Below, one piece after another: positions 10,101 to 26,925 of a stretch of DNA of 26,925 nt (positions within the stretch are counted from its first letter, which is position 1; each line of letters begins with the position of its first letter). Position numbers and translations under genes: made by a program. Below the pieces are notes generated by a model that was given only the letters and a program-made list of their open reading frames with translations, was not told the DNA's origin and did no database searches. This DNA is from Planctomycetaceae bacterium (lineage in GTDB: Bacteria > Planctomycetota > UBA1135 > GCA-002686595). Location of the stretch: NCBI GenBank assembly GCA_013360535.1, contig JABWBL010000001.1, positions 1 to 26,925 on the forward strand, read 5' to 3'.

Positions 10101-10855
10101 TTCGTGCGGCGACGCACGGGCACCTGGATCTCGGACCACTTGTCGTCATTCGACTGGTCCGGGCCGTTGTAGAAGAGGCCACGCGGCGCACCGGCGGCTT
10201 CCCACGTGTCGTTCGTCGCGAGCCACGCCGCGAGCTCGCGCGCGGTCTCGTCGGCGCGCTCGAACAGGTACGGGCCCTTGCAGCCCTTCGAGAGCACGGT
10301 GACGGGCTCACGGTCCTCGACCGCGACGTCGCCGTCCTTGCCGATGCTGCCCATCGACGGCTCGCGATAGAGGAACGACATCGTCCAGCCGACGGTCGAG
10401 AGCCGCCCGCGGTTGTCGAAGCCGTCGTAGTCCATCTCGACCGGCGAGGTCATCGCGATCTCGTTGCGCTTGATGTGCTGGAAGAGCGGCCAGAAGCCGA
10501 AGAACATGCCGAAATTCGGGTTCGAGTCGCCGGTGACCTCGGCACGTCGCGCGCGCGGGTAGCGCTTGATCTCGAACGCGCCCGGGGGTGTCGGCGGCGG
10601 ATAATCCTGCGGCAGCGCGGTCGTCACGCTGCACGGCCCGAAGCGGTAGACGTCGGCGCCGTCGACGCCGCGGCCGGCGAGCAGCTCGACACGCGCCTCG
10701 AGGTCGCCGCCGACGCGCTCGACACCGACCGCCAGAGGAGCGAGTGGAGCGCCGGCATCCGAGTTCGTCTCGGCGTCCTCGATCGCGTGGTTCGTCGAGC
10801 TGCAGGCCGTGGCGACAAGCCACAGGCCGTAGACAGGCAGGTGCAGGAGCTTCAT
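10097..10855 (-). CDS. SOUL-family haem-binding lipoprotein
   Basis: 252 residues starting MKLLHLPVYGLWLVATAC, a lipoprotein signal with the likely lipidated Cys at C18. A low-complexity linker is followed by a SOUL domain at about 92-250: GAFEIKRYPRARRAEV (92-107), PLFQHIKRNEIAMTSPVEM (123-141, the most diagnostic SOUL stretch), GWTMSFLYREPSM and LFYNGP. SOUL/HBP proteins bind haem or other tetrapyrroles; the exact role in bacteria is not settled. Its ATG overlaps the TGA of the selenoprotein gene (ATGA), and its own TGA overlaps the GTG of the next gene, so translation is probably coupled. It is predicted to be membrane-anchored outside the cytoplasm. Confidence 0.88.
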   Translation of the reverse strand: MKLLHLPVYGLWLVATACSSTNHAIEDAETNSDAGAPLAPLAVGVERVGGDLEARVELLAGRGVDGADVYRFGPCSVTTALPQDYPPPTPPGAFEIKRYPRARRAEVTGDSNPNFGMFFGFWPLFQHIKRNEIAMTSPVEMDYDGFDNRGRLSTVGWTMSFLYREPSMGSIGKDGDVAVEDREPVTVLSKGCKGPYLFERADETARELAAWLATNDTWEAAGAPRGLFYNGPDQSNDDKWSEIQVPVRRRTK

Positions 10856-11409
10856 CGGGTGTCTTGGGAGCCCGCGCAGGCGCCGCGGGCGAGAGTGCAG
10901 TAGTCGGGACGGTCCGCGACGTCGCGGTGGCGGTGCTCGCGCACGATGCGACCGCGGTGGATCACGAAGGTGCCGGGCATCTGGAGCGGATCTCCCTGCG
11001 GCCGTCCCACGCCCAGCCCAGCGCCGCCGAGCCAGCGAGGCGCGCCCGCAAGGAATCCCCGCAACCAGACGCGGGGGCCGAAGAGAGTTCGCAACGTGCC
11101 GCGCGGCAGATTCAACGCGCCGTACAGACGTTTCTCGGGGTCGGAGATGCGCGGCAGGTCCGCGAGGCCGTGAGCACCGAGGAACTCGGTGGCCTCGGGC
11201 TCGCTCGCGAGGTGCACGAGCACGATGCCCACCCCGGCGGCCTCGATTTCCTTGCGCCTCGCACGGAGGTCGCTCACCGCCTCGCGGCAGAACGTTCAGC
11301 CGAAATGCCGCAGCAGCACGACGAGCCGCGGCTGGGCGTCGCTCAGCGCCGCCAGCGTCTCGCCCGACTGCGTACGGGCCTCCTCGAGCGCCTGGCGCAG
11401 CTCCGTCAC
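10852..11409 (-). CDS. Peroxiredoxin-like (AhpC/TSA, PRXL2/SelL-type) selenoprotein with UxxC motif, TGA at 11298-11296 read as Sec
   Basis: Read through one in-frame TGA, this is a 185-residue thioredoxin-fold protein. The N-terminal part is [19 protein letters not shown], then LVVLLRHFG-U38-TFC41-REAVSDLR, then GIVLVHLASEPEATEFLGAH, LPRISDPEKRLYGAL, LFGPRVWLRGFL, QMPGTFVIHRGRIVREHRHR and DRPDYCTLA. This matches the AhpC/TSA-like family whose Cys-version motif is RHFGCxFCRE, so the TGA stands exactly at the first active-site cysteine. The start is the GTG at 11409, which overlaps the TGA of the upstream gene; the stop overlaps the SOUL ATG. Both junctions are intact, which argues against a pseudogene. 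Starting at the GTG at 11277 would remove the active site. A SECIS-like hairpin follows at 11283-11266. The likely role is thiol/selenol peroxide or disulfide chemistry; the true substrate is unknown. Confidence 0.85.
11266..11283 (-). promoter_or_regulatory. Candidate bacterial SECIS hairpin of the peroxiredoxin-like gene
   Basis: Counting bases after the UGA, GAGG (13-16) pairs with CCUC (27-30). Above it CG (17-18) pairs with CG (24-25), leaving a single bulged A (26) on the 3' side and the apical loop GUGAG (19-23). The loop starts 18 bases after the UGA with a G. That fits the loose bacterial SECIS rule as I recall it: apical loop 16-37 bases downstream with a G in its first two positions. 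An alternative CCGC/GCGG hairpin also exists. Confidence 0.55.
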
Positions 11410-24987: not shown

Positions 24988-26202
24988 TCAGAGCAGCGGC
25001 TGCGCGTGCGTGGCGATGTGCTCGGCGATGGCGAGCGAGGCGGTGGCGGCAGGCGAAGGAGCGTTGAGCACGTGCACGACACGGCCCTCGCGCTGGATCA
25101 GGAAGTCGTCGACGAGCGCACCATCGGGCGCGAGCGCCTGCGCGCGCACGCCGGCCTCGGCGGGGACGAGCTGCTCCTCCCGGATCTCCGGCACGAGCCG
25201 CTGCAGCGCCTTGGTGAACGCGCGCTTGGAGAGCGAGCGCCACATCTCCCCCATGCCGGCCTTCCAGTGGCGCTTCGCCAGCTTCCAGAAACCGTTGTAG
25301 CCGAGCGCGTCGGCGAGCTCGCCGAGGCGAATGTCGTCCCAGTGGTAGCCCTCGCGCGACAGCGCCAGCACCGCATTGGGCCCGCACTCGACGCCGCCGA
25401 GCGCCATGCGCGTGAAGTGCACGCCGAGGAACGGGAAGCTCGGATCCGGCACCGGGTAGATCAGGTTGCGCACGAGGTGCCACGCGGACGGCACGAGCTC
25501 GAAGTATTCGCCGCGGAACGGCACGATCCGGGCCGGACGGCGCACGCGGGAGAGCTGCAGCACGCGGTCGGAATGCAGGCCGGCGCAGTTGATCGCGACG
25601 GGCGTCTCGAACTCGCCGGCGCTGCTCTCGACGACGACGGACGAGGAGCGCGGCTCGAGGCCGGTCACCTTGGCGCCGAAGACGAGCTCGCCCCCGGAGA
25701 GGCGAATGTCGGCCGCGAGCGCGCGGCACATGCTCAGGAGCTCCTCGAAGCGCGCCATCTGGACGTCCTTCCCGCGCTTGAACATCGCCCAGGGATCGCC
25801 GTGATCGGCGGCGCAGACCGCGATGGACCGGAAGTTGTCGATCTTGTCCGCCAGCGAGATCGCCTGCGCCTCCCAGGGCTTCCCGGGGAACGCGGCGAGG
25901 TACCGCCGCTTGCGCTCCTCCCAGGGCTGGGATTTGTCGTGCTCGGTGACGTGCCAGACGAGCCCGGCCACGCGCGCCCCGAACCGCCCCGCGAGCTCCT
26001 CACGCGTCACGCCCTGGTCCTCGATCACGTCGTGCAGCGCCCCCGCCGCGACGACCTCGTCGTCGAACCCGTGGCGGGCGAGCGTGACCGCGACGCCGGC
26101 GAGGTGGCTCATGTACGGCACGTCCGCGTTCGGGTACTTCCGCTTCTGCGCCCGGTGCCACACCGCAGCCTGATCGAGCGCGCGCTTGAGGAGGAGGCCC
26201 AT
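24988..26202 (-). CDS. In-frame fusion: HD hydrolase domain (MESH1/SpoT-like) plus C-terminal half of an L-2-hydroxyglutarate oxidase-like protein
   Basis: 404 residues from the ATG at 26202. Residues 1-160 are an HD domain: YMSHLAGVAV (H33), GALHDVIEDQGV (H57, D58, E61, D62), SLADKIDNFRS (D119) and GDPWAMFKRGKDVQMARFEE. That is the ppGpp-hydrolase-like HD pattern. Residues 161-404 match the C-terminal half of LhgO-type FAD oxidases: ADIRLSGGELVFGAKVTGLE, VAINCAGLHSDRVLQL, VPFRGEYFELVPSAWHLVRN, LIYPVPDPSFPFLGVHFTRM, GPNAVLALSREGY, PAEAGVRAQALAPDGALVDD and VHVLNAPSPAATASLAIAEHI. The N-terminal GxGxxG FAD-binding half is absent. The switch lies at about base 25,720 within RALAADI. It is either a genuine fusion or a chimeric join; the oxidase part cannot be a complete enzyme by itself. 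Confidence 0.8.
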   Translation of the reverse strand: MGLLLKRALDQAAVWHRAQKRKYPNADVPYMSHLAGVAVTLARHGFDDEVVAAGALHDVIEDQGVTREELAGRFGARVAGLVWHVTEHDKSQPWEERKRRYLAAFPGKPWEAQAISLADKIDNFRSIAVCAADHGDPWAMFKRGKDVQMARFEELLSMCRALAADIRLSGGELVFGAKVTGLEPRSSSVVVESSAGEFETPVAINCAGLHSDRVLQLSRVRRPARIVPFRGEYFELVPSAWHLVRNLIYPVPDPSFPFLGVHFTRMALGGVECGPNAVLALSREGYHWDDIRLGELADALGYNGFWKLAKRHWKAGMGEMWRSLSKRAFTKALQRLVPEIREEQLVPAEAGVRAQALAPDGALVDDFLIQREGRVVHVLNAPSPAATASLAIAEHIATHAQPLL

Positions 26203-26529
26203 GGCCCGCACCTTAGCCGCACTCGCGCCGCCGCGCCGCGCAGACTGATGGCCCCGCCGCGCCGAGCAGACCGATGGCCCCGCCCGCGCAATCCAGGGTG
26301 CGCCTCCTGACCTGACCCGCTGCCGCGGAGCGCGGAGCTCGATGGCCGTGTGCAGCATCACGCCACGGCGCGATTGCAGCGCGCGGCGGGTGCGCGCGCC
26401 GAATGCCCCCGTGGCCGCCTCGGCTCATGGACGTTCCGGACGGCCGTCCGATGAATCTGATCGGGCCTGCGGCGCGGCGCTTGACCGGAGGCGGTGAATG
26501 ATCTCTTCTGCGCTTTCACGGAGGCAGCG
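26203..26529. other. Gene-poor divergent spacer with a 26-base direct repeat and a palindrome
   Basis: No recognisable gene in 327 bases. Contents: a near-perfect direct repeat GCAGAC(T/C)GATGGCCCCGCC at 26240-26258 and 26266-26284 (period 26); the perfect palindrome CGGACGGCCGTCCG at 26437-26450; a candidate -10 TAAGGT on the minus strand (26215-26210) 7 bases before the HD gene; and two Shine-Dalgarno-like GGAGG boxes at 26487-26491 and 26520-26524. The first box precedes an 11-codon open frame (ATG 26498, [11 protein letters not shown]) whose TGA overlaps the ATG of the selenoprotein gene. Confidence 0.6.
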
Positions 26530-26823
26530 ATGACCGTCAAGGCTGACTGGTACTATCACCGCAAGGGGTGAACGAGCTGTGGAAGAGCGCAGGAGTTCCT
26601 TGCGCAAGAGCGTGTGGAGATCACCGAGACGACCGACGCGAAGAAGGTGCGGCTCGGCGCGGCGGAGGCGCTGGCGATGGCGCGGCGGGCCACCGACGTG
26701 TACGTGGTGAAGGGCAAGCGGGTGGTCCATTTCGACATGCGCGGCGGCGGGCCGGACGATGACGAGCTGCTCGCGCACCTGCTCGGCCCGACGGGCAATC
26801 TCCGGGCGCCGGTCGTGCGCCGG
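26530..26823 (+). CDS. ArsC-family selenoprotein with UxxC motif (TGA 26569-26571 read as Sec), 3' end lost at a sequence junction
   Basis: The ATG at 26530 has a strong ribosome site, GGAGG at 26520-26524. Reading through one TGA gives [14 protein letters not shown]14-TSC17-GRAQEFLAQ, then [34 protein letters not shown] and [20 protein letters not shown]. This is the small ArsC/Spx-like thioredoxin-fold family in which the Cys version reads YYHRKGCTTCKRAQEFL, so the TGA again replaces the first cysteine of CxxC. Proteins of this family are not proven arsenate reductases; a general redox role is safer. After about base 26,823 the frame remains open to the window edge but no longer resembles the family, because the DNA there is the antisense of an ABC ATPase gene. 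The true C-terminus, roughly 10-25 residues, is missing. Confidence 0.82.
26587..26605 (+). promoter_or_regulatory. Candidate bacterial SECIS hairpin of the ArsC-family gene
   Basis: Counting after the UGA, GCGCA (16-20) pairs with UGCGC (30-34) and GG (21-22) with CC (27-28). A single bulged U (29) sits on the 3' side and the apical loop is AGUU (23-26). The loop begins 22 bases after the UGA with G in second position. The shape, a 2-bp top stem with one bulged base on the 3' side, is the same as in the hairpin of the peroxiredoxin-like gene. Confidence 0.65.
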
Positions 26824-26925
26824 GATGCCGGCGTAGATCAGCGGCAACTCGACGTTGGCCAGCGAGGTGGAGCGCGGCAGGAGATTGAAGGTCTGGAAGA
26901 CGAAGCCGATCTCGCGGTTGCGGAT
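26806..26925 (-). CDS. Fragment of an ABC transporter ATPase (LolD/MacB-type), truncated at both ends
   Basis: The last 120 bases read on the minus strand as [16 protein letters not shown] then [20 protein letters not shown] and HDRR. The Q-loop (GFVFQ) and the following [13 protein letters not shown] segment are typical of LolD/MacB-like export ATPases. The 5' part, including Walker A, lies outside the window. The 3' part (signature motif, Walker B) is missing: from about 26,806 leftwards the minus strand is simply the antisense of the ArsC-family selenoprotein gene. Confidence 0.8.

Follow-up and report, generated by a model that had tools for sequence, protein, structure and literature searches.

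A putative NF041106 selenoprotein gene, cut short at the end of a planctomycete contig and most likely foreign to it

The closest described family to the gene reported here is NCBIfam NF041106, "ArsC family (seleno)protein" (ArsC_rel_Se_1). A literature search for the accession led to a 2026 review (PMC13188914), whose Table 1 carries it as "Arsenate reductase-like protein, UxxC". A protein with the same motif, "Arsenate reductase 2" (cd03032), is given with 42 sequences in the Global Ocean Sampling survey (PMC2398784), and it resembles the present gene in being a UxxC ArsC-like selenoprotein. That it is the same family as NF041106 rests on the review's citation of that survey (number 61, going by the order of the reference list) and not on the sequences. 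In the Sargasso Sea survey (PMC1088965) there is also an arsenate reductase which, like our gene, belongs to the ArsC superfamily and has Sec at the first redox position; its motif, however, is UxxS whereas that of the window gene is UxxC. For the bacterial SECIS element a figure legend of the review specifies a loop of 3–9 nt, an upper stem of 4–16 bp and a spacing of 16–37 nt, to which it adds a G in the first two loop positions and an MFE of ≤ −7.5.

The stretch of DNA which we analyzed (the window) coincides with the entire contig C118 (26,925 bp) of assembly G000; this assembly comprises 4.05 Mb in 728 contigs and is 78.2% complete. Near the right-hand end of the window, on the forward strand, profile and homologue comparison identified the 5′ 98 codons of an NF041106 gene (26530..26823), the 3′ end of which is missing. 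Its ATG at 26530 is preceded by a ribosome-binding site (GGAGG, 26520..26524, forward strand) at a distance of 5 nt. Codon 14 is TGA (26569..26571), which, on the basis of the translation and of the relatives, we read as selenocysteine, and codon 17 is TGT (26578..26580), the second (resolving) Cys of a UxxC motif. Past the TGA the family sequence continues in frame up to GPTGNLRAP. The first-pass annotation, made from the letters of the window, had proposed a strong ribosome site, a TGA at the first Cys of the CxxC, a frame open through GPTGNLRAP and, overall, an ArsC-family selenoprotein with UxxC. All of this is borne out: the gene scores 115.3 bits against NF041106 (cut-off 85) and 108.5 bits in the genome-wide search with the same profile, U14 and C17 are in place, and its relatives carry Sec or Cys at that site. 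With Pfam the window gene gave a sub-threshold glutaredoxin match only, and Rfam and ARAGORN, run over the whole 26,925 bp, returned nothing relevant.

The NF041106 profile is matched to 93–95 of 107 in the window gene, which is cut at 26823. This copy lacks the last ~25 residues and with them the complete C-terminus of the family (G..L.VGF); we attribute the difference to truncation at a junction and not to divergence, the defining score still being reached. Where the window gene turns to unrelated sequence its homologue P0004 runs on as GGALLVGFDAAVYARVLGEEGKEAR. Judged from this comparison, position 26823, taken in the first-pass annotation for the end of the feature, is a junction and not the end of the gene. 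The same annotation held that ordinary annotation would miss the gene, for want of a proper start after the TGA. It is indeed missed or truncated, but a start does exist there: gene callers begin at GTG 26614 and produce a 104-aa ORF, which is public protein P0005, and the sister record P0004 starts at the same residue. The window gene is a new, truncated member of the already described UxxC family NF041106, and one that is probably mis-attributed.

Among 392 genomes of Planctomycetota, 112 contained some match to NF041106 and 80 a match over the cut-off. The 82 over-cut-off matches in these 80 genomes, a count which takes in both copies of G000 (the window gene and one on contig C122), have one internal TGA in 71 cases and none in 11; together with the profile score, this speaks against a chance match. 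The phylum follows from loci in these genomes that share a 50-residue stretch with named records, L034 and L064 (Planctomycetota bacterium OFTM77) or L022 and L111 being examples. At the Sec position, for which homologues with Sec or Cys had been asked, the 129 loci that we compared carry TGA (112), TGC (15) or TGT (2). These proportions do not represent population frequencies, since one set of loci was confined to the 80 best among 575 relatives retrieved with a TGA query and profile A1 was built from chosen matches; moreover, related sequences among the loci are not independent. The 129 are what remains of 138 parsed loci after nine were dropped from the hairpin counts, L126 because its motif was misparsed and the others (L147, L130, L131, L111, L064, L084, L088 and L107) because they repeat listed loci exactly or nearly so. 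The fold-energy set listed L126 too (113 TGA); 112 TGA loci were scored.

The own NF041106 gene of G000, on contig C122 (L002, 1495–1836), reads MKTPQVDWYLHRRN-U-TGC..., possesses an intact C-terminus and has TGA at the Sec position, while its closest relative, in the same-genus genome G268, has TGC there. Going by the codons, Sec and Cys are exchanged between close relatives at exactly the Sec position. Public protein records seldom display this site: of 108 public family matches, ten contain CxxC within the first 45 residues and three have Trp at the Sec position, and most of the remainder start downstream of it, so that public records of the family usually appear without the Sec region. The three Trp-containing members, P0027 (WKTC), P0028 (WNTC) and P0039 (WTTC), may be cases in which a gene caller using code 4 translated the TGA as Trp.

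Folding and comparison of relatives point to a bacterial SECIS hairpin at 26587..26605 (forward strand), consisting of a 7-bp stem and the 5-nt loop AGUUC (26594–26598), which starts 22 nt past the UGA. Its sequence is GCGCAGG-AGUUC-CUUGCGC, with G at loop position 2. As a 22-nt piece it folds at −11.3 kcal/mol, and measured on that piece it falls within the bacterial SECIS criteria quoted above from PMC13188914. The longer stretch folds otherwise: unconstrained folding of the 50–57 nt after the UGA of the window gave other structures, no SECIS-like hairpin was called, and the fold energy was not below that of synonymous shuffles (z +0.15). In the window the hairpin appears in the 22-nt piece only.

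The hairpin register was found in a set of ten Polyangiaceae-type sequences, one of them that of the window; 70/70 of their cells pair, and an A-U to G-C double change occurs. We compared pairing with that in 200 synonymous shuffles, which leave the protein unchanged and keep third-position GC on average. Across the 112 TGA loci 75.4% of cells pair versus 53.2% (sd 1.0) in the shuffles, of which 0/200 reach the observed value; when those ten sequences are set aside, the other 102 TGA loci still show 73.0% versus 51.9% (sd 1.0), again with 0/200. The 17 Cys loci behave quite differently in the same register (37.8% versus 36.6%, a value which 63/200 shuffles reach), and this gives a clear "no" to the question, raised in the first-pass annotation, of whether Cys relatives keep a similar hairpin. 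A G at loop position 2 is present in 98/112 TGA loci versus 3/17 Cys loci, and the mean z of fold energy relative to synonymous shuffles is −1.39 (TGA, n=112) versus −0.64 (Cys, n=17). In free folding a SECIS-like hairpin was called in 71% of TGA loci versus 49% of their shuffles, and in 35% of Cys loci versus 45%. The register is not universal among TGA copies, 5 or fewer of the 7 positions pairing in 42/112 of them.

The two residues over the SECIS loop, 8 and 9 after Sec, are EF in 62/112 and GF in 25/112 of the TGA copies; the Cys copies have AF in 7/17, EF in 2/17 and GF in 2/17. It is as if the loop G constrained the protein and the constraint were released after a Sec-to-Cys change, in counts which treat related loci separately.

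Sec decoding of 26569–26571 is well supported by these comparisons. The presence of the SECIS in Sec copies and its absence from Cys copies, with a control at the level of synonymous codons, would amount to a family-wide confirmation of Sec decoding.

The setting of the gene differs from that assumed in the first-pass annotation. Positions 25711–26823 apparently constitute a segment of about 1.1 kb of Polyangiaceae type, cut mid-gene at both ends. Its left part comprises, on the minus strand, the first 164 codons of a gene for an HD_4 phosphohydrolase (25711..26202): the ORF beginning at 26202 is identical to P0113 over 164/164 residues and then passes in frame into an L-2-hydroxyglutarate oxidase (24988..25710, minus strand; 324.2 bits). 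Of the latter only the C-terminal part is present (profile 147–388 of 389), positions 1–146 of the profile being absent. Protein comparison and profiles place this left junction, an in-frame fusion, at 25711..25725. On the right the ArsC gene shares 69/70 residues with P0004 (IT372_01920, from a Polyangiaceae bacterium), the sole difference being the start residue, and the match ends at residue 98. It gives way to an antisense ABC transporter ATP-binding fragment of the DarD/YbbA/MacB/LolD kind (26818..26925, minus strand; profile ~80–117 of 218–228). This fragment gave NCBIfam E values of 1e-6 to 3e-5 over ~35–36 aa, far below the cut-offs because it is only 36 aa long, and no match in Pfam. 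At the DNA level, position 26822 is where the longest ArsC match from Polyangiaceae stops, and numerous ABC matches start at 26802–26807; the right junction lies at 26806..26824, where the two kinds of match overlap by about 15–20 bases.

The longest contig is 103,680 bp for P0004 and for P0113 alike, and for the next relatives, P0006 (78%) and P0119 (80%), the corresponding figure is 178,268 bp each. In Polyangiaceae the HD_4 and ArsC genes thus very probably lie next to each other, the shared contigs being deduced from the lengths. Named HD_4 relatives at 77–80% belong to Sorangium and Chondromyces. In a tree of 139 rows (130 of the 138 loci plus 9 database proteins), built on few columns, with rough support values and a bootstrap that had not settled, the window gene groups with P0004, P0018, P0006 and P0012 (99/89), apart from the family of G000, and the C122 copy groups with same-genus G268 (100/96). 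The source of the segment was sought among genomes of the same family (108) and order (183) as that of L089; the best of them gave 71–75% DNA identity over parts of the gene, and the source species is consequently not among these genomes. Within G000, and apart from the window itself, searches with the segment and the ABC piece gave a single match, 82 bases long at 76%, in C728, so that the other half of the join did not turn up. By tetranucleotide make-up the segment does not stand out, 12 of 120 pieces of the contig body being as far or farther, and the designation "planctomycete" for that body rests on the kinship of the assembly.

Fragments of four genes are brought together at the end of a contig, and both joins fall within genes, an arrangement such as a misassembly produces. 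We regard it as very probable that the feature represents the 5′ portion of an authentic NF041106 Sec gene, situated on a Polyangiaceae-type segment in what is most likely an assembly chimera, and the window gene is most likely foreign to the contig. The position of the TGA, the homology, the conservation of the hairpin, the junctions and the foreign affinity are observed; the assembly, as opposed to biological, origin of the join we infer. One might instead envisage a real and recent transfer, in which the 1.1-kb Polyangiaceae segment, with its truncated HD and selenoprotein genes, was inserted into a planctomycete chromosome. The segment does lie on one contig, its foreign affinity is clear, and NF041106 members of several phyla are intermixed in the tree. 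We nevertheless consider this improbable, given that both ends of the segment cut genes mid-way and fuse them to the middles of other genes, that protein identity to Polyangiaceae-type records is essentially complete, that the segment lies right at one end of its contig in a 728-contig assembly, and that neither of the two same-genus genomes examined has a relative grouping with the window gene. A very recent acquisition from a myxobacterium, by which a selenoprotein gene and its SECIS entered a Sec-decoding host of another phylum, is likewise quite improbable. If the contig end is a chimera, as we prefer, the locus illustrates how an authentic Sec gene can come to be assigned to an organism that does not own it.

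The first-pass annotation had counted this gene as the second selenoprotein of one genome within 27 kb, and had used the two independent UxxC cases as an argument against sequencing error. The first statement is not supported, the ArsC gene being part of a Polyangiaceae-like segment that breaks off mid-gene on both sides, and the argument from two cases fails because the gene most likely comes from another organism. Better evidence takes its place, namely a TGA and a SECIS conserved across phyla, and the case for Sec decoding is independent of the earlier argument. That a Cys codon had been turned into TGA by a sequencing error might be entertained for a gene at the contig end of a doubtful assembly, yet the same TGA is found in the Polyangiaceae relatives L054 (Minicystis rosea, a complete genome) and L089, the DNA of which is very similar (86% mean column identity over 60 nt). 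The record for P0004 begins past the Sec position, as would be expected from a stop in its contig. We assign this explanation a negligible probability. A TGA acting as a real stop in a pseudogene or decayed gene is scarcely more credible; the window copy is indeed cut at its 3′ end and the full hairpin in the same register is missing from the 42 TGA relatives mentioned above, but the single TGA in 71 of 82 over-cut-off matches of the phylum, its recurrence at the Sec position in 112 parsed loci and the restriction of the hairpin to TGA copies speak against decay.

As to the product, we infer Sec insertion and a redox function. The UGA at 26569 would be decoded as selenocysteine by SelB and tRNA-Sec, steered by the intragenic hairpin at 26587–26605, and the protein would be a thioredoxin-fold member of the ArsC/Spx superfamily whose redox pair is UxxC, with Sec attacking and the second Cys resolving. 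Its role is most likely that of a small selenol/thiol oxidoreductase with this fold. Profile A1 aligns for most of its length with chains of Spx, YffB and ArsC-like proteins; in the comparison with Spx and YffB the family profile aligns over positions 9–115 of 116, with the CxxC of Spx under the family UxxC and the LRRP of Spx under the family LRAP. The window family differs from them in having Sec instead of Cys. A true selenium-dependent arsenate reductase, which the family name and the superfamily relation to ArsC might lead one to expect, and which would accord with the precomputed Pfam ArsC (PF03960) assignment on 14/108 relatives, appears unlikely. PF03960 has no match to P0001 or P0002, two intact relatives reach 20.5 and 19.1 against its gathering cut-off of 24, and the best solved relatives are Spx regulators. 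In addition, within the ~350 bases of downstream sequence read in L054 and L089, the next frame resembles an amino-acid permease and not an arsenic gene. Biologically, the window gene is one more member of a selenoprotein family already on record.

Elsewhere in the window, in the body of the contig, a SelL-related redox protein with an in-frame TGA in FG-U-TFC is encoded at 10855–11403 (minus strand). It scores 141.6 bits against NF040769 (cut-off 120) and is presumably the "first" selenoprotein of the first-pass annotation.

Sec machinery, the presence of which had been proposed as a check, was sought in G000 and its taxonomic family. Assembly G000 has SelB (contig C400, 305.5 bits) and SelD (contig C386, L019), the latter with a TGA of its own in CAG-U-AGK, and hence a probable Sec-containing selenophosphate synthetase as judged from its sequence; the review (PMC13188914) gives UxxK for Sec-SelD. 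In G000, SelA was not found by Pfam, and TIGR00474 detected a 62-bit N-terminal piece, below the cut-off, at the end of C79; a tRNA-Sec over the cut-off was likewise not found there. As the assembly is 78% complete, these absences are weak as counter-evidence. Among 61 genomes of the same taxonomic family, SelA is over the cut-off in 55 and tRNA-Sec also in 55, and both genus-mates of G000 possess the two.

Contig C62 (L003) of G000 encodes, at 1498–1593 on the minus strand, a tRNA of 94–96 nt with a GCA anticodon and an apparently long variable arm. It scores 45.8 bits against tRNA-Sec (gathering 47), and ARAGORN classed it as tRNA-Cys. It bears a tentative likeness to the selC*-type tRNA-Cys of PMC7609411, for which an extended acceptor is typical.
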